IMG/VR virus record: IMGVR_UViG_3300046485_000173 | Span: 1 to 21,816 of that record | Source of the DNA: a virus | Direction: 5' to 3' (one strand) | DNA length: 21,816 nucleotides | In this document: positions 2,464 to 21,283 of the stretch, in pieces | How the letters are laid out: every line of letters starts with the position of its first letter | Numbering within the stretch: position 1 is the stretch's first letter | Notes under the pieces: generated by a model | Database searches by the model: none | The model's input: only the letters and a program-made list of their open reading frames with translations | What the model was told of the DNA's origin: nothing | Program-made: the position numbers and the translations under genes

Positions 2464-3042
2464 TCACAAAATCTCAGCTTCTAATAAGTGAAGTTGCAAA
2501 ACAATTACCATCGCATATGAAATACTATGGCTTTTCTTGAAGGAAAAGCCATTATCATCTTTCATATATAATAATACATGACACGCTTCTCTTTCTGCTA
2601 TGTAGAAAGGCAGAAGTTCCTGCTTTCCTGGACGAATAAGGGCTAATACATCTGCTACTTCTTCAATAGATCTTGGTCTTAATTTTTTTAAAAGATCAGC
2701 ATGTTTGCCAACTTGAAATAGTTTTTCTACATTTCGTTCATCTAGCAATAAATCCCAATTTGGTTCTATCTTTAAAAGTTCTTCAATTTCTTCTCGTGAT
2801 TGAAAGTGTTGATATGTAGTAAGATGTAAAAAGTCTAACTTGAAATAGCCAAGTTCTTCAGCATTTTCGAATGGAATAGCAGATAATCCAGTTACTAGAT
2901 CTTTAGCAATAGCCTGTGGAAATACACCACAGGGATGAGGACCAAGTTTTTCGTTTTTGACTATACTCGCTTTAATCCAATTTGGAAATAACTTTAAAGG
3001 ATCTAGATTTGGTGGAGTATCTATGTCTACATCGAAACTCAT
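2464..3042 (-). CDS. DnaE-like DNA polymerase, C-terminal half (split gene)
   Basis: This 192-residue protein reads like the C-terminal palm and later core of bacterial DNA polymerase III alpha (DnaE, family C), strongly shortened. In order: SFDVDID (residues 2-8) matches the DFDVDF motif with two catalytic aspartates. GPHPCGV matches GKHAGGV. GYFKLDFLHLTT matches VKFDFLGLRT with the third aspartate. KLFQVGKHADLLKKLRP matches VFQLESRGMKDLIKRLQP. ALIRPGK matches ALFRPGP, and FKKSHSISYAMV matches FNKSHSAAYALV. Long segments between these blocks are deleted. The N-terminal counterpart is the gene at 14192-14722. Its ATG overlaps the zinc-finger gene as ATGA, so it is translated as its own gene. 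Activity is not certain. Confidence 0.75.
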   Translation of the reverse strand: MSFDVDIDTPPNLDPLKLFPNWIKASIVKNEKLGPHPCGVFPQAIAKDLVTGLSAIPFENAEELGYFKLDFLHLTTYQHFQSREEIEELLKIEPNWDLLLDERNVEKLFQVGKHADLLKKLRPRSIEEVADVLALIRPGKQELLPFYIAEREACHVLLYMKDDNGFSFKKSHSISYAMVIVLQLHLLEAEIL

Positions 3043-3782
3043 AAGCCTGCAGAACTAGAAAGATGTTGTAGTTCCTCTACAAGTTCTGGATTTTGACTAA
3101 ATCTTTCACCCCAAACAGCAGCATTGATAACACTTTCTATTAGTTTATATTCATCTATCTCAAGAGATTGTAAAAATTTAATTCCTATAGAAGAAGTAAA
3201 TAGGAACCAAGGAGAAAGCTTTTTCAATCTAAAAGCTTCAAGAACGACTTGAAAACCGAGAACAAATAATACTTCATTTAATTGACAGCCTTCTCGTTCA
3301 GCATGTTTTGCTAAGTATTCTATACTATCTGCTACTTGAAGATATGGATCATGTGTTTGATCGTAGAACTGTAAATATAGAGAATAGACATTATTACGAC
3401 ACCATAGAATTGGAGTAATATCAGATGCGTTTTTGACAATGAGAGTAATAAAGTTTTCAGCATCAATATTGAGTAGTTTACAATATTCTGTAAACTTAAT
3501 AAAACTGCTATACTGTTTTGATGTCATAAATGTATCAATTGGAGGAACAGTATGGCGTTGAAGTTTCATCCAAGTTGAATAATTTGCATACGCGGCTTGT
3601 CCAATAGGAGATTGGATTTGCTCTAATCGACGTTTGCCATTACAGATATGCTTCATGAAGCTTTTTTCATGAACGAATGTCTTTCTACAATAGTCACACT
3701 TCCATCCAATAACAGATGAAGCACTTGTTCTTCTATTAGAAGCTCTTGACTTAAGACTACTTGGGTCCATATTTAGTTGCAT
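3039..3782 (-). CDS. Zinc-finger protein conserved in T4-like phages
   Basis: A 247-residue protein with one C2HC/C2H2-like finger, CDYCRKTF then KSFMKHIC, at about residues 29-47. A basic KRR follows, then a long helical region (STWMKLQRHTVPPIDTF, KQYSSFIKFTEYCKLLNI). I recognise this arrangement from many marine T4-like phages, where a CxYCxKxF finger precedes a region with F-x-K-F and a Trp-Cys pair (here LWCRNN). The function is not known to me; the finger suggests nucleic acid binding. Ribosome-site support at the first ATG is poor, and an ATG four codons later is an alternative. It ends by ATGA into the DnaE-like C-terminal gene. Confidence 0.65.
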   Translation of the reverse strand: MQLNMDPSSLKSRASNRRTSASSVIGWKCDYCRKTFVHEKSFMKHICNGKRRLEQIQSPIGQAAYANYSTWMKLQRHTVPPIDTFMTSKQYSSFIKFTEYCKLLNIDAENFITLIVKNASDITPILWCRNNVYSLYLQFYDQTHDPYLQVADSIEYLAKHAEREGCQLNEVLFVLGFQVVLEAFRLKKLSPWFLFTSSIGIKFLQSLEIDEYKLIESVINAAVWGERFSQNPELVEELQHLSSSAGL

Positions 3783-3786
3783 AATT

Positions 3787-4281
3787 TTAAAAAGGAGATT
3801 TTACTTCTCTATTAAATTGAACAGGATAAGATGAATACCAATATCTTTCTCCATCATCTAAAAATTCTTTAATGAATGAATTAACAACCATATCTGTTAA
3901 TATTGGCAAATCAACTACGCCTTTGATGATTTCATGATAGTTACCACCAGTATGTATCTTAACACATTTTTGGAAAATAGGTAAATCTTTTTCATCTTTT
4001 AACCGTTCAATTTCTTGAAGTTCTTCATACATTAATTCTGTAGTTTGTTTAAGAAAATCTTGATTATTTTTGTTAACAATTTCGATTGCTAATTTTTTAT
4101 AAGCTCGTTCACGTTCAAAGTTGGCAGTACTCAAACATAACATATAAACAATTGGTCTTCTTTTTGAGAGAAAGTAACAATATAACCATTGACTGTCTTC
4201 AGTTTTGGTTTCAATGCTGAACAAATTATTACTTAGTTCAGCTTCAAATGATTTAATATATTGCTCTCTAAATCTACTCAT
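3787..4281 (-). CDS. Hypothetical phage protein, 164 aa, after the clamp loader genes
   Basis: A charged, mostly helical protein with a basic N-terminal stretch, a central Glu/Lys-rich helix (ELMYEELQEIERLKDEKDLP) and an aromatic C-terminus (RYWYSSYPVQF). It starts by ATGA overlap from the gp62-like gene. In T4 the gene after 44 and 62 is regA, the translational repressor, but I see no convincing resemblance to RegA here. No enzymatic motif, signal peptide or membrane segment is visible. A role connected to replication is possible from position only. Confidence 0.55.
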   Translation of the reverse strand: MSRFREQYIKSFEAELSNNLFSIETKTEDSQWLYCYFLSKRRPIVYMLCLSTANFERERAYKKLAIEIVNKNNQDFLKQTTELMYEELQEIERLKDEKDLPIFQKCVKIHTGGNYHEIIKGVVDLPILTDMVVNSFIKEFLDDGERYWYSSYPVQFNREVKSPF

Positions 4282-11198: not shown

Positions 11199-11777
11199 AT
11201 GCTACAAACATATCATTTCACTTATAAAGTAACTAATACAAAAAATGATGAATATTATTTCGGAATGCATTCTACACAAAATTTAAATGATGGGTATTTA
11301 GGTAGTGGGAATAGGATAAAACGTTCAATTAAAAAACATGGAAAAGAATTTTTTAATTTAGAAATTTTGTCTTTTTTTGAGACCCGTAAACTACTTATTG
11401 AAGCCGAGAAAAAATTAATAATTCTGGAAATTTTAAATGATCCTTTGTGCTTAAATTTAACTTTAGGTGGCCAAGGTGGAAATACCCATGAATGGTCAAA
11501 AGAATCACGAGAAAAAAGTTCTAAAAAATTAAAAAATCGTATTAATAATTGGGGCAATAAAGTTTCAAAAGCTCTTAAAGGTAAAAAACCTCCAGTAGAT
11601 AGAGTTTTAAGAGCTGCAAATTCTAGAAGAGGAGAAAGAAACGGTTCTTGGAAAAATATAAATTTAACACATTTAGAAATTTTAAAAAAAGAAGGTTTTA
11701 CTATTGATAAAATAGCTGAAAAAATGGATATCAGTCGTTCTACAGTAAAAAGAAAACTTAAATTAATAAACATTTAA
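11199..11777 (+). CDS. GIY-YIG homing endonuclease (Seg-like)
   Basis: A 192-residue basic protein encoded against the surrounding strand. It contains a GIY-YIG-type core: YKVTNTKNDEYYFGMHST, then GYLGSGNRIKRSIKKHGKEFF with the catalytic Arg region, and LLIEAEKKLI with the metal-binding Glu. A Gly-rich GGQGGN linker follows, then a Lys/Arg-rich DNA-binding segment and a C-terminal helix-turn-helix, ILKKEGFTIDKIAEKMDIS. This architecture is that of T4 Seg-type free-standing endonucleases, which spread by cleaving cognate DNA. Its stop is two bases from the nadM stop on the opposite strand. Strand, composition and its place beside a truncated radical SAM gene suggest later arrival. Confidence 0.85.
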   Translation: MLQTYHFTYKVTNTKNDEYYFGMHSTQNLNDGYLGSGNRIKRSIKKHGKEFFNLEILSFFETRKLLIEAEKKLIILEILNDPLCLNLTLGGQGGNTHEWSKESREKSSKKLKNRINNWGNKVSKALKGKKPPVDRVLRAANSRRGERNGSWKNINLTHLEILKKEGFTIDKIAEKMDISRSTVKRKLKLINI

Positions 11778-11779
11778 AA

Positions 11780-12829
11780 TTATCTCCCTTGACAAGCTTT
11801 AACGGACCAACGAATAATTTCGATGTGATCCTCGAATAGAAATTCCTCCATATCTAGAGCATCATTGATAGGAAACCATTTAGCTTTTGCAGCATCATCA
11901 GAACCTTTTACTTTTGGTAATTCACCAGCAGGTAATTGAAATGCGAAAGCATGTGTAATAGTTCTACCTCTTAAAGATCGACCTGGATGATCAAATACTT
12001 GTTTATCAATCATAGAACCAGCAAGCACTGCAGTTGGTATTTTAAGTTTAGTTTCTTCTCTTAGTTCTCGTAAAACAGCAACAGTAAGATATTCATCTTG
12101 ATTAACAAAGCCACCTGGTAGAGCCCATAGACCTTTGCCAGGAGCTGATCGACGTTGCACTAAAAGAATATGACCTGCCTGAATAACAGCAGCATCCACT
12201 GTAACATATGTTGGTGGATATGGAGCTTTTAGAGCTTCTTTTTTGTAAGCTTCGATGAATCGATATTCTTCGCAAAGCAAATGGTATTCTTTGCATTCAG
12301 CCCATTTTCGCAGATATTCTTCTAATTTAATGTCAAGAAGTGGTTTATCATGCCAGTGAAACAATTTACCAGAAAAGTATTCATTACGAACTGTAGTAGC
12401 ATTGACATCTTCAATGTGATCCATTTCGATTAGTTTCCATTGTGGAAACATATCCAAGTAGTAACTCGTAGAATCTTTTTTGCAACCAATGATGCCAATT
12501 CTTCGTTTATCAATATAACCGAGGACTTCTTTCTTTACGATAGATTGTACTTGTTGTACCCATTCTTGGTCATTATAACGATAATCATGGAGACCTCTAC
12601 ACATAACTCTTGCAGTTGCAGCAGGTGGTAATTGGTTGAGCAGCATGGCTGCTCGTTCCATCCAATTCCAAGGATTTTTAATTGTACGAGGTTGAAAGCT
12701 AGAACCAAATAGAACTAGAACTCTTTCAGAAAGTTCAAGTGCTTTTTTGACATTAGCTACATGAGCATTTGTTGGTGGTTGCATACGGCCGATATAAACG
12801 ACCAAATCATATGGTTTTTTAGTTGTCAT
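11780..12829 (-). CDS. nadM: Bifunctional NMN adenylyltransferase / Nudix hydrolase
   Basis: A 349-residue fusion. The N-terminal domain (about 1-190) is a nucleotidylyltransferase: GRMQPPTNAHVANV replaces GRFQPxHxGH, and FGSSFQPRTIKNPWNWMER matches the ISSSxxxRTxxNPFTxxER motif. It joins NMN and ATP into NAD. The C-terminal domain (about 205-345) has the Nudix box GFVNQDEYLTVAVLRELREE followed by TKL, so the box ends in Lys-Leu instead of Gly-hydrophobic. Related fusions hydrolyse ADP-ribose. The start shares the TAAGGGGATTCCT leader with nadV. Together they rebuild NAD from nicotinamide, and the Nudix activity could clear ADP-ribose left by NAD-cleaving defences. Confidence 0.93.
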   Translation of the reverse strand: MTTKKPYDLVVYIGRMQPPTNAHVANVKKALELSERVLVLFGSSFQPRTIKNPWNWMERAAMLLNQLPPAATARVMCRGLHDYRYNDQEWVQQVQSIVKKEVLGYIDKRRIGIIGCKKDSTSYYLDMFPQWKLIEMDHIEDVNATTVRNEYFSGKLFHWHDKPLLDIKLEEYLRKWAECKEYHLLCEEYRFIEAYKKEALKAPYPPTYVTVDAAVIQAGHILLVQRRSAPGKGLWALPGGFVNQDEYLTVAVLRELREETKLKIPTAVLAGSMIDKQVFDHPGRSLRGRTITHAFAFQLPAGELPKVKGSDDAAKAKWFPINDALDMEEFLFEDHIEIIRWSVKACQGR

Positions 12830-12830
12830 A

Positions 12831-12876
12831 AGGAATCCCCTTAGGTTAGTGATTTACGAAGTTGTCTATCAACTTC
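12831..12876 (-). promoter_or_regulatory. nadM leader: shared ribosome-site motif and hairpin
   Basis: The minus-strand leader holds TAAGGGGATTCCT (12843-12831), identical to the nadV leader, with AAGG/CCTT able to pair around it. Fifteen bases upstream is a hairpin with 7-bp stem GAAGTTG (12858-12864) against CAACTTC (12870-12876) and a 5-nt loop. Both sit between the possible late box and the start codon. Confidence 0.5.
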
Positions 12877-12881
12877 ATTGG

Positions 12882-12889
12882 TATTTATC
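12882..12889 (-). promoter_or_regulatory. Possible late promoter box for nadM
   Basis: The minus strand reads GATAAATA, one base off the TATAAATA box, 53 bp before the nadM ATG. One-mismatch boxes are common in AT-rich DNA, so support is limited. Confidence 0.3.
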
Positions 12890-12893
12890 AATT

Positions 12894-12927
12894 TCGTGAA
12901 GCTATAATAACATATTAAGCTTCACGA
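12894..12927. repeat. Strong bulged hairpin upstream of nadM
   Basis: TCGTGAAGCT (12894-12903) pairs with AGCTTCACGA (12918-12927). The inner TAATA (12905-12909) pairs with TATTA (12913-12917), leaving one bulged A and a 3-nt loop: 15 bp in total. No T-run follows on either strand. It lies between the stop of the 12940 gene and the possible nadM late box, so it could mark a transcript end or protect an RNA end. Confidence 0.7.
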
Positions 12928-12939
12928 GTACATCAAAAA

Positions 12940-13158
12940 TTATTCAAACATACCAGCTTTTATGAATAATGCTACTGGAATTGGATCTGTATCTGACGAT
13001 ACTTTAGATCTATCTTGTTGAATGATATGTTTTTGTGTTACCCGATCCATGAGTTTAGTTGGATCTAAGAAGAACCTAGCTTCAGCAGGTTGAAAGCTAG
13101 GTTCTTCATAGTCAATATCTGTTAATGAACTAGAAACGGTAGGTTGCTGATTCGTCAT
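12940..13158 (-). CDS. Hypothetical phage protein, 72 aa
   Basis: The start is placed at ATG 13156-13158, with GGCGGT just before it, rather than a further-upstream ATG that would overlap the GroES-like gene by 77 bases; it still overlaps by 29. The protein (starts MTNQQPTVSSSLTDIDYEEP) is polar with a disordered N-terminus and a C-terminal motif DPIPVALFIKAGMFE. Such short tails follow co-chaperonin and structural genes in phages, but no function is recognised. Confidence 0.5.
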   Translation of the reverse strand: MTNQQPTVSSSLTDIDYEEPSFQPAEARFFLDPTKLMDRVTQKHIIQQDRSKVSSDTDPIPVALFIKAGMFE

Positions 13159-13471
13159 TTGATACCGCCATAATGAAGTTTTCTTCAGACATCCAGAAAC
13201 GATCACTATCGAAGTTTATTCCAGGTGACCATTTGCCTGGTTCTACTAGAATATATTTGTGTGATTTTATTTCTTCATTTACGTCTGGTCCATGTGCAAT
13301 CACTTCACCCCATTTAGGAGAATGAATTTCCTGATAGCCATGAACGTCAGTAATCAAAAAACCATTCTTCGTTTTTGGCATAAATCCAGTAGAAGTAACG
13401 TTTTCTGTGAACTTGAAATAAATTTTATCCGTAAGCGGAGTGATAGTATAATTTGCAGTTTTGTATTGCAT
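13130..13471 (-). CDS. GroES-like co-chaperonin (gp31-type)
   Basis: A 113-residue beta-rich protein. ITPLTDKIYFKFTE resembles the opening strands of GroES (x-PLxDRVxVK). WGEVIAHGPDV matches the GEVVAVGPG motif. HKYILVEPGKW and FMAV-like FIMAVSNDE match the later strands. Co-chaperonins cap the host GroEL ring; T4 gp31 is required to fold the phage major capsid protein. The mobile-loop part between residues 22 and 42 (STGFMPKTKNGFLITDV) has a GFLI stretch like the GroEL-binding loop. The gene sits between two small genes. The ATG is preceded by a weak AGAG. Call based on pattern only. Confidence 0.6.
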   Translation of the reverse strand: MQYKTANYTITPLTDKIYFKFTENVTSTGFMPKTKNGFLITDVHGYQEIHSPKWGEVIAHGPDVNEEIKSHKYILVEPGKWSPGINFDSDRFWMSEENFIMAVSNDESATYRF

Positions 13472-13496
13472 ATGTTTTATCTCTTATATGAGTATT

Positions 13497-13775
13497 TTAT
13501 TTAGCTTTTTTAGTTGATACTTCAACGACTGGTTCTTCAACTGGCTCTTCTTCAACAACAAAATCGGCAGCCATTGACATAGCAGAAATATCTTTCAGCC
13601 CAGTTGGAATTTCTGAAGCAGAAACAGTTTTTGGTTTTACACCATCTTTCGTATCAATGAATCGTCGGCGTTCTTCGGTACCAACTTGAACGGGTGTAGC
13701 AGCAAGTTGCTGCTTAATTTGAAGTATATCGAAATCGACGATTTCTCCTCTTGCTGAACGTGCAGTAATTGGCAT
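13497..13775 (-). CDS. Conserved phage protein (MPITARSARGEIVDFD type), 92 aa
   Basis: The N-terminus MPITARSARGEIVDFD, followed by LQIKQQLAATP, is a pattern I associate with a small protein found in many tailed phages, usually annotated only as hypothetical. The C-terminal third is acidic and repetitive (VVEEEPVEEPVVEVSTKKAK), probably disordered. AAGGAGA seven bases before the ATG is a strong ribosome site. A late-box-like element with an inverted repeat lies upstream, which suggests late expression with virion or assembly genes. Confidence 0.6.
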   Translation of the reverse strand: MPITARSARGEIVDFDILQIKQQLAATPVQVGTEERRRFIDTKDGVKPKTVSASEIPTGLKDISAMSMAADFVVEEEPVEEPVVEVSTKKAK

Positions 13776-13807
13776 GTGGCTTTCTCCTTATAGTTTTCTG
13801 TTATTTG

Positions 13808-13834
13808 ATAAATAGAGTGATCTTTCTATTTATT
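13808..13834 (-). promoter_or_regulatory. Late-box-like element within a 9-bp inverted repeat
   Basis: The minus strand reads AATAAATAG (13834-13826), near the T4 late box. ATAAATAGA (13808-13816) is the exact reverse complement of 13825-13833, with an 8-nt loop. The HNH-type gene's stop lies inside the distal arm. The element could act as late promoter for the 13775 gene, as a transcript-end hairpin, or both. Confidence 0.45.
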
Positions 13835-14150
13835 GTATCGAATTATAAAAGTTTGCTATCTTTTCTAGTTCTTCTTTAGTAGCATTATTTTTTAGTCGGT
13901 TAGCTTTCCAGCTTACAACAATAATGTTATCTATCTCATATGGTTTTGAACTGTCTATTCTATCAAAGCTGTAACTATTATCTTGAGCTTCTATTCTGTT
14001 AAAAGAAAGAGGAATTCCAAGAATAGGACATGTTATCGGGAATGAAAGGTGATTAAGTTCAGGAATAGTTAGTTTGAATTCAATATTACGTCGTTTTGCT
14101 GAGGCTTTTAGACGATTGTAAATCGATTTTATTTCTGGAGGCCGTGTCAT
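13830..14150 (-). CDS. HNH-type endonuclease-like protein
   Basis: A 106-residue basic protein. TCPILGIPLSF gives a Cys-containing strand. SYSFDRIDSSKPYEIDNIIV, then VSWKANRLKNNAT, match the phage proteins that carry the pattern SxDRIDxxKGYxxxNVxxxSxxANxxKxxxT. This is the HNH/endonuclease-VII-related core, in which the Asp-Arg-Ile-Asp and Asn residues lie at the active site. It sits directly after the truncated N-terminal half of the DnaE-like polymerase, the typical place of a homing endonuclease next to a broken target gene. Expression appears controlled by a hairpin and late promoter just upstream. There is little ribosome site outside that hairpin arm. Confidence 0.65.
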   Translation of the reverse strand: MTRPPEIKSIYNRLKASAKRRNIEFKLTIPELNHLSFPITCPILGIPLSFNRIEAQDNSYSFDRIDSSKPYEIDNIIVVSWKANRLKNNATKEELEKIANFYNSIQ

Positions 14151-14185
14151 AATACATCATCGAGATTGATAATGATGTATTTATA
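14151..14185 (-). promoter_or_regulatory. Late promoter TATAAATA overlapping a start-codon hairpin
   Basis: The minus strand has an exact TATAAATA (14185-14178). ATGATGTATT (14172-14181 on plus) pairs perfectly with AATACATCAT (14151-14160), a 10-bp stem with 11-nt loop. The downstream arm abuts the ATG of the HNH-type gene. RNA reading through from the polymerase half would contain both arms; RNA starting at the late promoter (near 14172) would lack the upstream arm. Confidence 0.7.
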
Positions 14186-14191
14186 AAGCCG

Positions 14192-14722
14192 CTATTCATG
14201 AAAAAATTCACTATAATGAATATTATATTTCAGCGGATCTACACAATGCAAGCCTAATAAGAACAACAAATAACTTGCGCAACTTGAACCCCTACCTACT
14301 CCCCAAACTATATTATTTTTCTTAAATGTATCTACAACAAAGATAATAGTTCTTAAACCCATTTCGAATTTAAATTTTATTACTTGTTCTAATTCGATTC
14401 CAACGCGTTCATATGCTGCTGAAGTCGCATTTTTCTTATAAAGTAATTGAGCAAAATATTCAATAACATTTAATTGTTGATATTCTTCAGGAATTAGCCA
14501 AGTATAGTCCAAATCAATAGAATCTGATTCACTGAACACTTTCAGTTCAACATCCGAACGCAAATTGAATTGACCTATATCCTCATTTATTTCAGTTACC
14601 TGAATACACTCAGGTGAAAGTCCTGCTAAAAATAAATCAATAACAGATTCTGGTTCTACAACAGAAATACCATTTGCTAATAGTAATCTATCTTCAAGAA
14701 CTGTGACTAAAGCTGGATGCAT
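14192..14722 (-). CDS. DnaE-like DNA polymerase, N-terminal half (split gene)
   Basis: A 176-residue protein whose second half matches the start of the DnaE palm. YERVGIELEQVIKFKFEMG matches the LDYELQVINQMGFPGYF region, followed by FKKNNIVWGVGRGSSCAS, the GRGSxAGS motif that binds the incoming nucleotide phosphate, then LLGLHCVDPLKYNIHYSEFF, the DPLxxxLLFERF motif. It stops (TAG) right after FFHE, exactly where DnaE would continue into SMPDFDVDF. That next block starts the gene at 2464-3042. Only about three residues are missing at the joint. The usual PHP domain is absent. The ATG overlaps the dCMP deaminase gene by 16 bases. An HNH-type gene follows. Confidence 0.75.
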   Translation of the reverse strand: MHPALVTVLEDRLLLANGISVVEPESVIDLFLAGLSPECIQVTEINEDIGQFNLRSDVELKVFSESDSIDLDYTWLIPEEYQQLNVIEYFAQLLYKKNATSAAYERVGIELEQVIKFKFEMGLRTIIFVVDTFKKNNIVWGVGRGSSCASYLLFLLGLHCVDPLKYNIHYSEFFHE

Positions 14723-15171
14723 TCAATTCCACATTCTGCTAAAAGTTCAAGACCTTCTGGTTCTCTATCATACTTTTCAAGATAAAAAACAGTTTTAATG
14801 CCAGAGGTAATTATAGCTTTTGCACATGAAAGACACGGAGTATGTGAAACTGCCATTTCGCAACCGTCGATCGCAATACCAAGTTTTGCTGCAGTTGCAA
14901 TAGCTGAAATTTCAGCATGACCTTCATTTCGTAATGAAAATTTACGATGGGTTTCAACAGCAATTTCAGATCCGGATTTCATTAGAAATTGTTCTGCTAC
15001 ATCAAAAACTTCATTACAATGAGGTTGACCAGGCATACTACCATTATATCCGCTACAAAGTATTCTTCCTTTACTGACAATAATAGCACCAACTTGAACC
15101 CTTGAACAAGTACTTAGTTTAGTTGTTGCTATTAAAACGTCTTTATAGTATTGATGATATTTGTTACTCAT
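14707..15171 (-). CDS. cd: dCMP deaminase
   Basis: A 154-residue zinc enzyme converting dCMP to dUMP for thymidylate synthesis. The catalytic HAEISAI motif (His-Ala-Glu, near residue 88) and the second zinc site TPCLSCAK (near 111-118) are both present. STCSRVQVGAIIV and GYNGSMPG are the usual substrate-binding blocks. Length is close to that of T4 Cd. The start has TGAGGAA as ribosome site and follows two bases after the zinc-protein gene. With the TS-fold enzyme at 19011 it belongs to nucleotide supply for replication. The gene symbol follows T4. Confidence 0.9.
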   Translation of the reverse strand: MSNKYHQYYKDVLIATTKLSTCSRVQVGAIIVSKGRILCSGYNGSMPGQPHCNEVFDVAEQFLMKSGSEIAVETHRKFSLRNEGHAEISAIATAAKLGIAIDGCEMAVSHTPCLSCAKAIITSGIKTVFYLEKYDREPEGLELLAECGIECIQL

Positions 15172-15173
15172 TT

Positions 15174-16031
15174 TTATTCCTCAATTTTTAAGCCTTTAGA
15201 TGATACTGAAATATGTTTGTTGTTTTCAGATATCCATTTAATTGCGGCTGATAAAGTAAACCAAGTTCCATCTTCACAAAGTTTATCCATTCTTGAAATC
15301 AGTTTTTCTGAACCAGTGCTAAAATGAAATTCTTGACGAGAATGAGTTTTTATTGAAATTTTTGTAATCTCACCAGCTCCAAATTTATTATCAACTACTT
15401 CTTGACGAATGCTTACGATTTTACCTTTTACTGAAGCTGTTTCTCCAACTCTGTATTCTTTATAAAGGGATTTTTCTACATCTTGTAGACATTGTTGTTT
15501 ATAGCTTCTTAAAACTGCATTCACTTGGTTTTCTGACAATTTTCCAAATACTTTCCATTGCGATTTAATGCTTGTGATAAATGAACCAGTTCCTTCGTTA
15601 AGAGCATCAATGAAATCTTCACGATCTGAATCTGAAAGAAATGCTATGCTTTCGATTCTTTTTTCTTCACGACCTTTTTCTAAAAGAACAAGAGCTTCAG
15701 CTTTTTTTCTCAATTGTTCAGCATAACGGGCAACGACTGTCATTAAACGTTTTTCAAAAACTTTATGCTTTGCAGCCATTAAAGCTTCAACACTTTCAAC
15801 TGAAGGAAGATTTAAACCTGTATGACATTTACCTTTACAAGCTGTACAGGTACGATTCATTTTTCTACCAGTTCCACAGCAACGTTTGCATACTAGAACT
15901 TTAGCAACTGAACAGTATGTCATAAAGCAAGCATTTACTGATAGTTCATCAAAATCTTCAGGTTGAAGAAGTTGACTTGCTAATAGTACAGCTAAATCTT
16001 TTAAAGTTGCAAAATATTCATCGTTTAACAT
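15174..16031 (-). CDS. DnaJ-type zinc-binding phage protein, 285 aa
   Basis: A first gene after early promoter B. Two CxxC pairs, CKRCCGTGRK (about residues 48-57) and CTACKGKC (about 62-69), form the DnaJ-type CxxCxGxG cluster, though without a J-domain. A helical region follows. The stretch SFITSIKSQWKVFGKLSENQVNAVLR (in parts SFITSIKSQW and KLSENQVNAVLR) is a motif seen in phage helicase- or recombination-associated proteins. A C-terminal beta-rich part, ASVKGKIVSIRQEV onward, reads like an OB-type fold. It may bind single-stranded DNA or RNA; the exact role is unknown. GAGGAGA precedes the ATG. It is followed after two bases by dCMP deaminase. Confidence 0.6.
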   Translation of the reverse strand: MLNDEYFATLKDLAVLLASQLLQPEDFDELSVNACFMTYCSVAKVLVCKRCCGTGRKMNRTCTACKGKCHTGLNLPSVESVEALMAAKHKVFEKRLMTVVARYAEQLRKKAEALVLLEKGREEKRIESIAFLSDSDREDFIDALNEGTGSFITSIKSQWKVFGKLSENQVNAVLRSYKQQCLQDVEKSLYKEYRVGETASVKGKIVSIRQEVVDNKFGAGEITKISIKTHSRQEFHFSTGSEKLISRMDKLCEDGTWFTLSAAIKWISENNKHISVSSKGLKIEE

Positions 16032-16058
16032 GACTACTATCTCCTCAATTCATAAAAT

Positions 16059-16097
16059 ATTATACTCTACTTTATCAGCAAAAGTAAACTGTTATTT
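16059..16097 (-). promoter_or_regulatory. Early-type promoter B
   Basis: AAATAACAGTTTAC (16097-16084) gives TTTACT as -35, then 18 bp, then a perfect TATAAT (16064-16059), 28 bp before the ATG of the zinc-protein gene. It shares the 14-base motif with promoters A and C, and shares CTAGTTA upstream with C. Confidence 0.75.
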
Positions 16098-16181
16098 TTG
16101 ATAACTAGTTATCATTCCTCTAAAGTAACTTATTTGTTTCAATAGATTTAACTTTCAAGTTGACCAAAATTAATACCTTTT

Positions 16182-16190
16182 TAATAAATA
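16182..16190 (+). promoter_or_regulatory. Possible late promoter of the plus-strand island
   Basis: TAATAAATA lies 53 bp before the likely ATG at 16244 and diverges from early promoter B. It is one of several TAATAAAT(A) boxes here. The rest of the 210-bp divergent region (16032-16243) shows no other feature. Confidence 0.4.
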
Positions 16191-16243
16191 CGTTTGTATT
16201 CATATTCTTATATCAACCTTTATCAAACCTTTACAATAAAACT

Positions 16244-16645
16244 ATGATTAGAAAAACGGGATCACAGAATCAAAAGGCCGATCAAATTTTAATAGATTGG
16301 GATGGTATTGAGCGAAGATTGCAAGAACGTCGCAATGCAGAATTATTAGAACTTGATCAACATCAAAACAATGAAAAGCAGAGTTTTATCAGTCGTTATG
16401 GTTCAATTCTAGCAACTGTAATTTCAATACTTGCTACTGTAATTACATTTGGAGCTTCTTTATACAATAGAGTTTCAAATTTAGAAGTTAAACAGAATAC
16501 AGCAGTAGAGAAAATAGAAGAAGTAAAACGAGATATGACTGATATTAAAAACGTTTTGAAGGAACAAGATAAATCACAGAAATCGCTAGATGGACATATT
16601 TCAAGCATTGAAGAAACAATGATGCAACTTTACAGGAAAAAATAA
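16244..16645 (+). CDS. Coiled-coil protein with one or two membrane helices, 133 aa
   Basis: The frame extends upstream to a TTG, but the ATG at 16244 (MIRKTGSQNQK) is preferred, since the extension would add an unrelated hydrophobic leader overlapping the promoter. After a charged N-terminus (GIERRLQERRNAELLELD) a hydrophobic segment ISRYGSILATVISILATVIT lies at about residues 46-65, long enough for a helix. A C-terminal coiled coil follows (VEKIEEVKRDMTDIKNVLKE). No ribosome site is visible. The layout, a charged N-terminus, one membrane span and a coiled coil, fits a phage membrane or lysis accessory protein, but no family is certain. Confidence 0.6.
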   Translation: MIRKTGSQNQKADQILIDWDGIERRLQERRNAELLELDQHQNNEKQSFISRYGSILATVISILATVITFGASLYNRVSNLEVKQNTAVEKIEEVKRDMTDIKNVLKEQDKSQKSLDGHISSIEETMMQLYRKK

Positions 16646-16662
16646 GTTAATATTGCCATTTC

Positions 16663-17100
16663 ATGGATAGAATAATATATTTCATATTTTGTGCCTTGCT
16701 TTTTTTTAGCAATTCTATACGTGCGACAGAACCTGTCGTAATTGCTGAAGCGTCACTGCCAGAAACTAAATTGCAACGTTCTGATTTAGTTTATATTTTT
16801 ACTAGACAGCGAATGTTTTGGGCAGATGGACATAAAATTAAAGTATTTGTGAAACCATCAAATTCAATTGAAAATAAATTATTTGCTATTAATGTTTTGA
16901 ATTTGTCTCCTTATAAGTATAGATCTTTATTAGATTCGGTGATTTACGCAGGATTAAATACTCCAGCAGATGAAGTTTCATCTGATGAAGAAATGTTGCT
17001 TAAGATTTCTTCAACTCCATATTCAATTGGCTATTTGAATTACCATACTGTTATTTCAAATGCATATGCTCCAGACATTATGATAATTCATCATGAATAA
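16663..17100 (+). CDS. Secreted phosphate-binding-like (PBP-like) protein
   Basis: A 145-residue protein with a clear signal peptide (MDRIIYFIFCALLFFSNSIRA, cleaved after about residue 21). The mature part matches the small PBP-like/PstS-related domain of Gram-negative bacteria. LQRSDLVYIFTRQRMFWADG matches the xDxxxIFxGKxxxWxDG pattern. KIKVFVKPSNS, LNLSPYKYRSLLDSVIYAG and the ISSTPYSIGYL block, which corresponds to the VxxxPGAIGYL strand, follow. The protein is too short for a full PstS. It is probably periplasmic and may bind an anion or peptide. Its stop overlaps the start of the outer-membrane protein by eight bases, so the two are made together. No ribosome site is obvious. Confidence 0.7.
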   Translation: MDRIIYFIFCALLFFSNSIRATEPVVIAEASLPETKLQRSDLVYIFTRQRMFWADGHKIKVFVKPSNSIENKLFAINVLNLSPYKYRSLLDSVIYAGLNTPADEVSSDEEMLLKISSTPYSIGYLNYHTVISNAYAPDIMIIHHE

Positions 17101-18220
17101 GCTAATTTTCTTAATTTTGTTTTTTCTATTAGCATTTAAAGTAGAAGCATATACTTTTACAAATGGTGATCTCAAATTAGATGCTAATGGATATATTGGC
17201 TATAAGTTTATTGGAGCAACTGTAAAACATTCTGTTTTGCCATCTGAACCAGAACTTGGTTTAGCACTATCTGCTCAATATGGAAATCATCTTTCATTTT
17301 ATACACAATTTGCATATGATGATCAAATTGATAGAGCTCTTGTTTACAGTTTTGCAGCATATGATATTCAATTCGAAAATGAAATAAATTTAACATTGAA
17401 AGCTGGAAAACTTAGACATCCTTATGGTTTGTATAATGCAGCTCGTATTAATCCAAGAACAAGACCCGGAATAATTGTTCCGCAAGCAATTTATTGGGAT
17501 TCACTTAATCACCTATTAACATCGGGTGTTGGTGCCGGTTTTGATGTTAAATGGAGAAATGTTGAATTAGGTTATGAAATGGATAATCCAGGTACTGGCA
17601 ATCCAAAAGATGAAGCTTTAGTTTGGTCTGGTGGATTATTAAAAGAAACAAATACCTCATTTGGATCTCACCAATCAGCTTATGTAAAGTATAATTTTTC
17701 TAGTATTCCTGCAACATTTAAATCTTCTTGGATGAGAATTAACTTAGGAAACAAAACTGCTCCAATAGCAAGTTATTTGTTTCCTCAAATTACTAACAAA
17801 GATAATATAGCAAATATGTTTATAAATTCTGTAGAATTTAATCCATTTGATAAATTTACTTTTACTGGTGAATCACTATTTGTAAAAACTCCAATTAACT
17901 TCAATAATGATTTTACAAAATGGTCTAATGGCTATTCGTTTACGGGCAAATATGAATTGACTGACAAAATCAATGTTTACGCAAACTATAACTATTATCA
18001 ATCACAACATATTCCATTTACTCCTGAACAAAAATGGCAATATCAAAATACTACTGATGTCAGCATTGGAATAAATTATCACGAAAATAAATGGCAGGTT
18101 GGAGCAGAAATCCACAAAATTCAAGGTGGAAGATGGGCAAATCCTAATGACTATTTTAGCGATCCAAATAGCTTCAAGAATTGGTACATGGTTGGGGTTA
18201 ACTTCGCGTACTTTTTTTAA
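17093..18220 (+). CDS. Outer-membrane beta-barrel (porin-like) protein
   Basis: A 375-residue protein with an N-terminal signal peptide (MNKLIFLILFFLLAFKVEA). Many alternating-hydrophobicity strands follow, such as LDANGYIGYKF, LSFYTQFAYDD and INVYANYNYYQ. It ends in NWYMVGVNFAYFF: a terminal Phe after an aromatic strand is the BAM-recognition signature of outer-membrane proteins. KLRHPYGLYNAAR is a periplasmic or loop block like those in bacterial barrels found beside PBP-like genes. It overlaps the PBP-like gene, so they probably form an envelope unit. Phage porins are unusual. Possible roles are solute uptake, pore formation or receptor masking. The final four bases overlap the convergent 18217 gene. 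Confidence 0.75.
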   Translation: MNKLIFLILFFLLAFKVEAYTFTNGDLKLDANGYIGYKFIGATVKHSVLPSEPELGLALSAQYGNHLSFYTQFAYDDQIDRALVYSFAAYDIQFENEINLTLKAGKLRHPYGLYNAARINPRTRPGIIVPQAIYWDSLNHLLTSGVGAGFDVKWRNVELGYEMDNPGTGNPKDEALVWSGGLLKETNTSFGSHQSAYVKYNFSSIPATFKSSWMRINLGNKTAPIASYLFPQITNKDNIANMFINSVEFNPFDKFTFTGESLFVKTPINFNNDFTKWSNGYSFTGKYELTDKINVYANYNYYQSQHIPFTPEQKWQYQNTTDVSIGINYHENKWQVGAEIHKIQGGRWANPNDYFSDPNSFKNWYMVGVNFAYFF

Positions 18221-18510
18221 TCTTTAAAATTTGTTGCAAGCATTTTAACTAAATTAGCTATTTCTTCCATATATTCGTTTTTAACGGTTCTTAAAATATC
18301 ATTTGTATCTAATTCAAAAACAGTAAACATCTGATCTTGACTAGCTAAATTACAAACTCGACTAATAACATCATAAATGGTTGGAGAAATATTATTTATT
18401 TTAGAACAAGTTTCTACCTCATTCAATGCATCTAAAATTAATTCATGCACAATAATATCATTAACGACATAAGTTTGTGCTATTTGTTTTGGAGTTAAAA
18501 ACTTGCTCAT
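18217..18510 (-). CDS. Hypothetical helical protein, 97 aa
   Basis: A helical acidic protein (starts MSKFLTPKQIAQTYVVNDII) with two Cys residues and no membrane segment or clear motif. It lies alone on its strand, converging with the outer-membrane protein gene, with an exact late box 25 bp upstream. It is therefore probably a late protein, but its function is not recognised. There is little ribosome site before the ATG. Confidence 0.6.
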   Translation of the reverse strand: MSKFLTPKQIAQTYVVNDIIVHELILDALNEVETCSKINNISPTIYDVISRVCNLASQDQMFTVFELDTNDILRTVKNEYMEEIANLVKMLATNFKD

Positions 18511-18518
18511 ATATTTTT

Positions 18519-18543
18519 CTATAAATGTTTATTATATTTATAG
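18519..18543 (-). promoter_or_regulatory. Late promoter TATAAATA within an 8-bp inverted repeat
   Basis: The minus strand has exact TATAAATA (18542-18535). CTATAAAT (18519-18526) is the exact reverse complement of 18536-18543, with a 9-nt loop, so read-through RNA can form a hairpin that RNA starting at the late promoter would lack. The downstream arm ends about eight bases before the ATG of the 18510 gene. Confidence 0.65.
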
Positions 18544-20018: not shown

Positions 20019-20860
20019 TTTAATTTTTCGATACTTAAAATCGCATAAGCTGGGATATTTGCAAGAGTATACATTCCATTAGCATAATTTGGATCTCTAA
20101 AAAATCTAACATTTTCAGGTAACTTATCTGTCGAAATAATTAAAAGCTTTGACATACCTGAAAGTTTTAGTTGAGGAGCTAATCCGCTAATTAAAAATCC
20201 CTTATTGACACCAAAATAAATTCGTTCTGGATGTGTTGATATTTTATTTTTAGATTTCGGAACTAAACCAATTTTTCTAATTTTACTTATATTAAAATCA
20301 GAAGTCACATGATATAATTCTTCAGGCCAAAATTTTCTATCTAATTCTAAATCATATTTAGCTTCAATTTTCAATAATACTTGAGAAGCTTCTTTTAATT
20401 TCTTGACATTATTTTTAATAGAGTTAAGATCAACTTCATTAGAAGAACTCAAAGATTCTGTTTTTTGCTTCTTATAATAAACTACAGAAATAAACCAACC
20501 AAGAGTATTAATAAGCTTTAACAGATTTTCAAAATCATCAAATGGCAATGAAATAACTATTGTAAAATCATTAGGTTCAATACCATTTTCTGGTAAATCT
20601 TTATTGAACTTAAATTCAGACCATTTAGCTTTTAGACTTGAAATAGTAGTTGAAATTGAATATGTTTTTATTAGCCCTTCATAAACAAGATTTTGATTAA
20701 ATCTTTCTTGGAAAGCCAATTGGTAATTTTGAGAAACTCCAGAAGTTAAAGAAGAAATAGGTTGTTTAATAAATTCTGAAAACTTCATGCTAAAAGTCTC
20801 ATTTCGCAGTTTTTCTTCATTTCTTAATTGTTCAATTCTTAGCTTTTTATCTGCATTCAT
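20015..20860 (-). CDS. Phage protein with a possible ADP-ribosyltransferase-like C-terminus
   Basis: A 281-residue protein. The N-terminal half is helical and charged; an internal MKFSEFIKQP (residue 25) looks like the start seen in T4-like virion or internal proteins, so an internal start is possible. The C-terminal third carries ELYHVTSDFNISKIRKIGLV, ISTHPERIYFGVN and ANIPAYAI. The order H-x-T, GLxPK, then RIYFG resembles small ADP-ribosyltransferase or RNA phosphotransferase-like folds. No complete catalytic triad can be shown by eye, so the call is tentative. Its start overlaps the lipoprotein stop by ATGA. With a NAD salvage block nearby, NAD use would be coherent but is unproven. Confidence 0.4.
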   Translation of the reverse strand: MNADKKLRIEQLRNEEKLRNETFSMKFSEFIKQPISSLTSGVSQNYQLAFQERFNQNLVYEGLIKTYSISTTISSLKAKWSEFKFNKDLPENGIEPNDFTIVISLPFDDFENLLKLINTLGWFISVVYYKKQKTESLSSSNEVDLNSIKNNVKKLKEASQVLLKIEAKYDLELDRKFWPEELYHVTSDFNISKIRKIGLVPKSKNKISTHPERIYFGVNKGFLISGLAPQLKLSGMSKLLIISTDKLPENVRFFRDPNYANGMYTLANIPAYAILSIEKLK

Positions 20861-21249
20861 TTTTTATAAAGAGAACTACTTGAAGAATCATCTAACGTCC
20901 ACATTGCTCCGGTAAGAGGATCAACAAGCAAACCTCCAATAAATCCACCTAAAAGCAGATTTCCGAAGTACCAAATGTTAAGTGAACTATGAACTGTTGA
21001 AATACCTTCGCGATATCCAGGAAGTTCGTACGAAACGAGATAATTTTCGCCAATAAAATAAGTGCTACCAGTTTTCAATGTCACTAAAGATGGAGTTGTT
21101 CCCTGACTAACTACTTTTCCATGCTTATTCGTTACAGTGTACTGTGCTTTTGACGGAGTACTATCAATAACAACTTCTTTAGTTGAACCACTAATGACAG
21201 ATGCACAACCAGACAAAGTCATTAATGCAATTAAGATTAGATATTTCAT
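20857..21249 (-). CDS. Lipoprotein with PEGA-like and glycine-zipper segments
   Basis: A 130-residue protein with a lipobox, MKYLILIALMTLSGCASVISG, where Cys15 would be lipidated. The mature part has a PEGA-like strand pattern (VVIDSTPSKAQYTVTNKHGK, then TPSLVTL and YELPGYREG) and a C-terminal glycine-rich hydrophobic segment LLLGGFIGGLLVDPLTGAMW. Similar lipoproteins occur in phages and in Gram-negative bacteria. It likely sits in the envelope; a superinfection-exclusion role is possible. A late-type box and hairpin lie before it, so it may be made late. Confidence 0.75.
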   Translation of the reverse strand: MKYLILIALMTLSGCASVISGSTKEVVIDSTPSKAQYTVTNKHGKVVSQGTTPSLVTLKTGSTYFIGENYLVSYELPGYREGISTVHSSLNIWYFGNLLLGGFIGGLLVDPLTGAMWTLDDSSSSSLYKK

Positions 21250-21283
21250 AATATTTCCCTCGAGTTAAAAGAAATATTTATTA
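21250..21283 (-). promoter_or_regulatory. Late-box-like element overlapping a start-codon hairpin
   Basis: The minus strand reads TAATAAATA (21283-21275). AATATTTC (21250-21257) is the exact reverse complement of 21271-21278, so read-through RNA pairs GAAAUAUU beside the lipoprotein ATG with the upstream arm, 8 bp with a 13-nt loop holding the ribosome site. RNA starting near 21269 would lack the upstream arm. Confidence 0.5.

Follow-up and report, generated by a model that had tools for sequence, protein, structure and literature searches.

The window analysed here, a 21.8-kb stretch of jumbo-bacteriophage DNA, carries a gene for a PacI-like HNH endonuclease of 106 aa, probably a free-standing homing endonuclease (13830..14150, phrog_3322). 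Upstream of it lies the N gene of a split polymerase (14192..14722, PF07733, phrog_11127), and downstream are a conserved small ORF (13497..13775), which in relatives comes immediately behind the polymerase N gene, and a co-chaperonin-like gene (13130..13471, phrog_931, head morphogenesis). The C-terminal gene of the split polymerase is found at 2464..3042 (PF17657, phrog_11778). Two copies of ATAAATA flank the HNH gene, one at 14178..14184 ahead of its start codon and the other at 13827..13833, overlapping its stop codon. All of these features are on the minus strand.

The HNH protein matched the phrog_3322 endonuclease family (E 2.6e-28), and searches of Pfam and NCBIfam with it returned no match. 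Its AlphaFold model (mean pLDDT 87) had PacI (3ldy) as best PDB match (Foldseek probability 1.00, E 0.01), with a VIA Z of 7.9 over 96 residues, a moderate value to which the residue match adds weight; Gme HNH and Hpy99I were matched as well. The sequence profile reached PacI weakly (E 0.04), and the profile alignment placed R64 and Y71 opposite R93 and Y100 of PacI, which have been named as catalytic (PMC13139853). Y71 is invariant and R64 nearly invariant across the HNH family. The modelled fold is a His-Me finger in which a PacI-type Arg64/Tyr71 pair would replace the usual His. Since the fold matches PacI, the Arg/Tyr pair is kept and these residues are conserved in the family, the enzyme is likely to be active. 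PacI, although the best match in fold and catalytic pair, shares only 16-18% identity and has 142 residues as opposed to 106, and a restriction role is not implied. A T4 protein encoded at 11785 (minus strand), in our reading Srd, for which a role as sigma decoy has been postulated, proved to be a distant relative of the HNH family (phmmer E 7e-8), and for this reason a non-nuclease role of the window protein keeps a small probability.

The earlier note had placed the HNH gene beside a broken target, a description that did not survive comparison with relatives. Pol III alpha-like N and C genes lie 15-44 kb apart in jumbo relatives, and a split minimal Pol III alpha has been described for group 2.2 jumbo phages (PMC7824862). 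Gene order, from the polymerase N gene through the small ORF to a co-chaperonin or small gene, is kept in nine relatives (XacN1, RAS14, 121Q, PA5oct, SCTP-2, RaK2, GAP32, Hallingskeid and XaC1), as confirmed by protein comparisons in XacN1 and RAS14, and an HNH gene beside the polymerase N-half was absent from all nine. Because the split is ancestral, already published and present in nine relatives with no HNH gene at this position, the HNH gene did not break the polymerase. The description of the split enzyme is reportedly by Iyer and colleagues.

Further relatives were sought with the polymerase N gene. A single-protein search found none, and a search with an alignment recovered 39 metagenomic loci. 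In the closest of these (L132, 57% identity), a decayed HNH remnant (3574-3821) separates the polymerase N gene from the small ORF; it corresponds to HNH residues 80-106 at 67% identity, with the promoter and hairpin at the stop codon kept. The next-closest loci, L133 and L134, have an empty junction without HNH. As nine relatives are empty and L132 holds a remnant, the HNH gene is a late insertion that followed the polymerase split, and it is decaying in a sister lineage. Sporadic insertion between conserved genes, with both empty and decayed sites, is what characterizes a free-standing homing endonuclease. At its downstream end, the ATAAATA at 13827..13833 is the putative promoter of the displaced downstream genes and coincides with a 9-bp hairpin, ATAAATAGA/TCTATTTAT (13808..13833, minus strand), that has an 8-bp version in L132. 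In XacN1 and RAS14 ATAAATA overlaps the stop codon of the polymerase N gene, just as it overlaps that of the HNH gene in the window.

ATAAATA was the top enriched upstream 7-mer in the nearest two sequenced relatives: it precedes 42 genes in XacN1 (2.4 expected) and 35 genes in RAS14 (2.2 expected), mostly 20-29 nt ahead of the start codon. In both genomes A is overrepresented about 12 nt past the first base of the motif, which marks the likely start site. In the window the predicted late promoter core, contained in TATAAATA (14178-14185), agrees in motif and spacing with these late sites, in relatives that have only about 40-50% protein identity: it stands 27 nt ahead of the HNH AUG, the right distance for a gp55-type motif, and predicts a +1 at about 14172. 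By count the window has no excess of TATAAATA (3 copies against 3.6 expected), and this sequence is taken as a promoter because of the position of ATAAATA before genes rather than its number. The exact TATAAATA was considered as the late motif and rejected as too strict, its counts in XacN1 and RAS14 being lower than those of a reversed-pattern control. A gp55-type late sigma profile had matches in all eight relatives searched, and no sigma factor was visible within the 21.8-kb fragment itself. Analysis of phage CBB had also predicted ATAAATA before structural genes, together with a gp55-like sigma (PMC5259590).

Across this promoter and the start of the HNH gene, the minus strand from 14190 to 14148 reads GGCTTTATAAATACATCATTATCAATCTCGATGATGTATTATG. 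It contains the perfect 10-bp stem that the earlier note had described at the start codon, with arms AATACATCAT (14172..14181) and ATGATGTATT (14151..14160) that are 100% complementary and enclose an 11-nt loop. The 3′ arm abuts the HNH AUG, and the 5′ arm does overlap the late-promoter sequence TATAAATA, as had been noted. RNAfold extended the stem beyond these 10 bp, to 14140..14190 on the minus strand, with the AUG paired within it; RNA containing the 5′ arm folded at -16.2 kcal/mol, which none of 200 shuffles matched (z -3.8). The core of the stem alone has -10.0 kcal/mol if a ribosome ending the upstream gene covers the stem base, the masking limit in this calculation being an assumption of the analysis. 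RNA from the predicted late +1 was nearly open (-2.0 kcal/mol). In the predicted RNA structure the hairpin therefore covers the initiation region and has its 5′ arm, present in read-through RNA only, upstream of the late +1, as in a T4-type switch. Because the predicted +1 sits inside the hairpin, read-through RNA would be closed and late RNA open, in line with the switch that had been proposed for this gene. The HNH gene has no Shine-Dalgarno sequence, so that the hairpin would hide the start codon rather than a ribosome binding site. The 3′ arm, which is part of the late leader, holds two out-of-frame AUGs; with these and the missing Shine-Dalgarno, even the open late RNA may be a poor template for translation. 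A search for the exact hairpin arms across viral contigs gave no match; the single HNH remnant among the 39 polymerase N-gene loci is without the window hairpin, so that none of these relatives has both gene and hairpin, and a scan of the empty junctions of relatives revealed no significant hairpin.

To quantify the predicted switch, we took every ATAAATA lying 14-45 nt ahead of a gene, across eight genomes or fragments, and calculated how much more it costs to open the start region if the RNA also carries the part before the predicted +1. In the T4 positive control the top ranks went to genes that, from their protein starts, we take to be 49, e, segB, I-TevII and soc. The HNH gene of the window scored 12.2 kcal/mol, as much as T4 gene 49 and more than e, segB and I-TevII. 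This score was reached by 1 of 184 swapped-in 5′ pieces from other late-promoter sites and by 5 of 3000 shuffled leaders, which places the combination of hairpin and promoter above chance. Overall, 32 of the 185 scored sites passed p 0.05, where about 9 were expected. Hairpins were significant at 6/6 endonuclease-like genes with a canonical late site as opposed to 26/179 other sites (Fisher p 2e-5), a post hoc comparison in which one of the six, from 121Q, is a GIY-YIG protein that is only endonuclease-like.

Within the HNH family itself the picture is less favourable to the switch: ATAAATA is missing ahead of the homologues in XacN1 and RAS14, and a canonical late site precedes only 2 of 67 distinct family members; we count both observations against it. 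One homologue, L189, was considered as a second case and set aside (score 5.2, p 0.06); it was the only similar one among the 67, and read-through is not expected there because its upstream neighbour runs the opposite way.

Other late sites with hairpins were detected. At 21275..21281 (minus strand) an ATAAATA is accompanied by a hairpin over the Shine-Dalgarno of the next gene (20857-21249). The switch score there is 6.8 kcal/mol, for which swapping gave p 0.07 and shuffling p 0.01; this hairpin, at 21249-21281, precedes a lipoprotein-like gene (phrog_6823). A weak example is the ATAAATA at 18535..18541 (minus strand), where an A/U hairpin of 8 bp precedes gene 18217-18510. Among all scored sites, the late-promoter hairpin predicted to be strongest (16.5 kcal/mol) belongs to RAS14, where it takes up the Shine-Dalgarno of a GIY-YIG homing endonuclease gene in its 3′ arm; the gene (217268-218086; L049:7268-8086) lies just upstream of a nicotinamide phosphoribosyltransferase gene. 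At 118483 in XacN1 (L027) and 208233 in RAS14 (L048), an Rz-like spanin gene is preceded by a terminator-like hairpin that has ATAAATA within it, and these two stems have a common layout with no evident shared sequence. In XacN1, ATAAATA-overlapping hairpins also close the starts of small function-unassigned genes at 20531 and 51208 (scores 11.9 and 9.4). On these predicted folds, the window HNH gene is one of several hairpin-gated late genes in the clade.

Taken together, these data argue, with a probability that we put at roughly three in four, that the HNH gene is kept off on read-through RNA by the hairpin and released on late RNA. The PacI-like HNH gene, free-standing and probably a homing endonuclease gene, entered behind the polymerase N gene, where relatives have a late promoter. 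Transcripts reading through from the upstream operon would hold the start codon locked in the long hairpin, and the gene would hardly be translated from them. A possible source of such RNA is a sigma-70-like promoter ahead of the operon that holds the polymerase N gene (16059..16088, minus strand), identified as a consensus match only; a terminator scan of the minus strand from 12800 to 16300 detected none, and so none in the stretch linking the polymerase N gene to the HNH gene. Later, a gp55-type sigma would bring RNA polymerase to ATAAATA, and transcripts starting at about 14172 would lack the upstream arm, leaving the start codon open and allowing the enzyme to be made late.

Several other explanations were weighed against this one. 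If the late promoter is real, the hairpin could still be a chance or neutral product of AT-rich DNA that has no part in translation control. Neither TATAAATA nor the inverted repeat is remarkable singly, because the former occurs at chance frequency and the window contains 22 inverted repeats of at least 10 bp, and no relative found combines gene and hairpin, as covariation would need. It is the rarity of the observed score among swapped pieces and shuffled leaders, and the presence of alike hairpins at two other late sites of the window and in relatives, that make a chance hairpin unlikely. We regard it as improbable that the promoter at 14184 serves mainly the downstream small ORF and co-chaperonin genes, with HNH expression incidental: in relatives ATAAATA does lie directly after the polymerase N gene, adjoining that operon, but the window has its second ATAAATA at 13833, next to this operon and 51 nt before its start.

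The inverted repeat might instead act as DNA, as an operator through which the endonuclease represses its own late promoter in the manner of I-TevI. The I-TevI operator overlaps its late promoter, candidate operators exist for I-TevII and I-TevIII (PMC2988022), and the window repeat overlaps a promoter too. RNA folding explains the repeat adequately, however; an operator, to which we give a slim chance, would also be compatible with the hairpin switch. A role at the 3′ end of the polymerase N-gene mRNA, in protection or processing or as a weak attenuator, would fit a hairpin that starts about 2 nt past the stop codon, and XacN1 and RAS14 have terminator-like hairpins whose loop contains the promoter. 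This we consider very improbable, as the stem is not followed by a U-run and was not among the calls of the terminator scan.

The hairpin switch has precedents in T4, where late-promoter/hairpin control of I-TevI, I-TevII, I-TevIII and segB has been reviewed (PMC2988022). The likeness to I-TevI seen by the earlier note was borne out: the geometry agrees with that of I-TevI, I-TevII and segB, in which late RNA from an endonuclease gene is without the 5′ arm of the blocking hairpin, and the same calculation flags known T4 cases. The I-Tev genes are intronic and have a hidden Shine-Dalgarno, whereas the window gene is free-standing, lacks a Shine-Dalgarno and has its AUG paired. The same promoter-in-hairpin geometry, with comparable or lower switch scores, is found at T4 e, soc and 49, which are resident phage genes and not mobile endonuclease genes.

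Independent use of the switch by an HNH-family gene, as the earlier note had suggested, would not be new, since mobE of Aeromonas phage Aeh1 and I-TevIII are published HNH cases according to the T4 review (PMC2988022). As described there, mobE resembles the window gene in being a free-standing HNH gene with hairpin and late promoter that adjoins a gene in pieces. It differs in being embedded in a ribonucleotide reductase gene, by a title cited in that review, whereas the window split is ancestral and the HNH gene came later; the window is therefore not a gene in pieces of the Aeh1 nrdA/mobE type, where the insertion brings about the split or happens together with it. The HNH subtype also differs, as the window protein has the PacI-like Arg/Tyr site. 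Only four canonical sites were scored in Aeh1, and mobE is not among them.

The switch has been known mainly from T4 and its close kin, and the present data would extend it to a distant jumbo phage group and a different type of nuclease, adding a PacI-like enzyme, a second locked endonuclease in RAS14 and a spanin lock in XacN1 and RAS14. They also provide an insertion series in which the gene is absent, intact or decayed. Tentatively, a promoter inside a hairpin could be a general safety lock that jumbo T4-like phages place on hazardous late genes within early or middle operons, both homing endonucleases (the window HNH gene and the RAS14 GIY-YIG gene at 217298) and lysis genes (the Rz-like spanins of XacN1 and RAS14, with unrelated stems), and that would have evolved anew at each gene instead of being inherited. 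Given the cases in RAS14 and XacN1, a rule of RNA-folding locks on dangerous late genes becomes a testable question.

The window contains a second homing endonuclease gene, of the GIY-YIG type (11199-11777, phrog_314), which is opposite in strand; the ATAAATA closest to it stands 76 nt upstream, beyond the usual spacing. Genes at 16663-18220 on the plus strand, phosphate-binding-protein-like and porin-like, stand amid minus-strand replication genes and have a host-like look in our reading of their translations.
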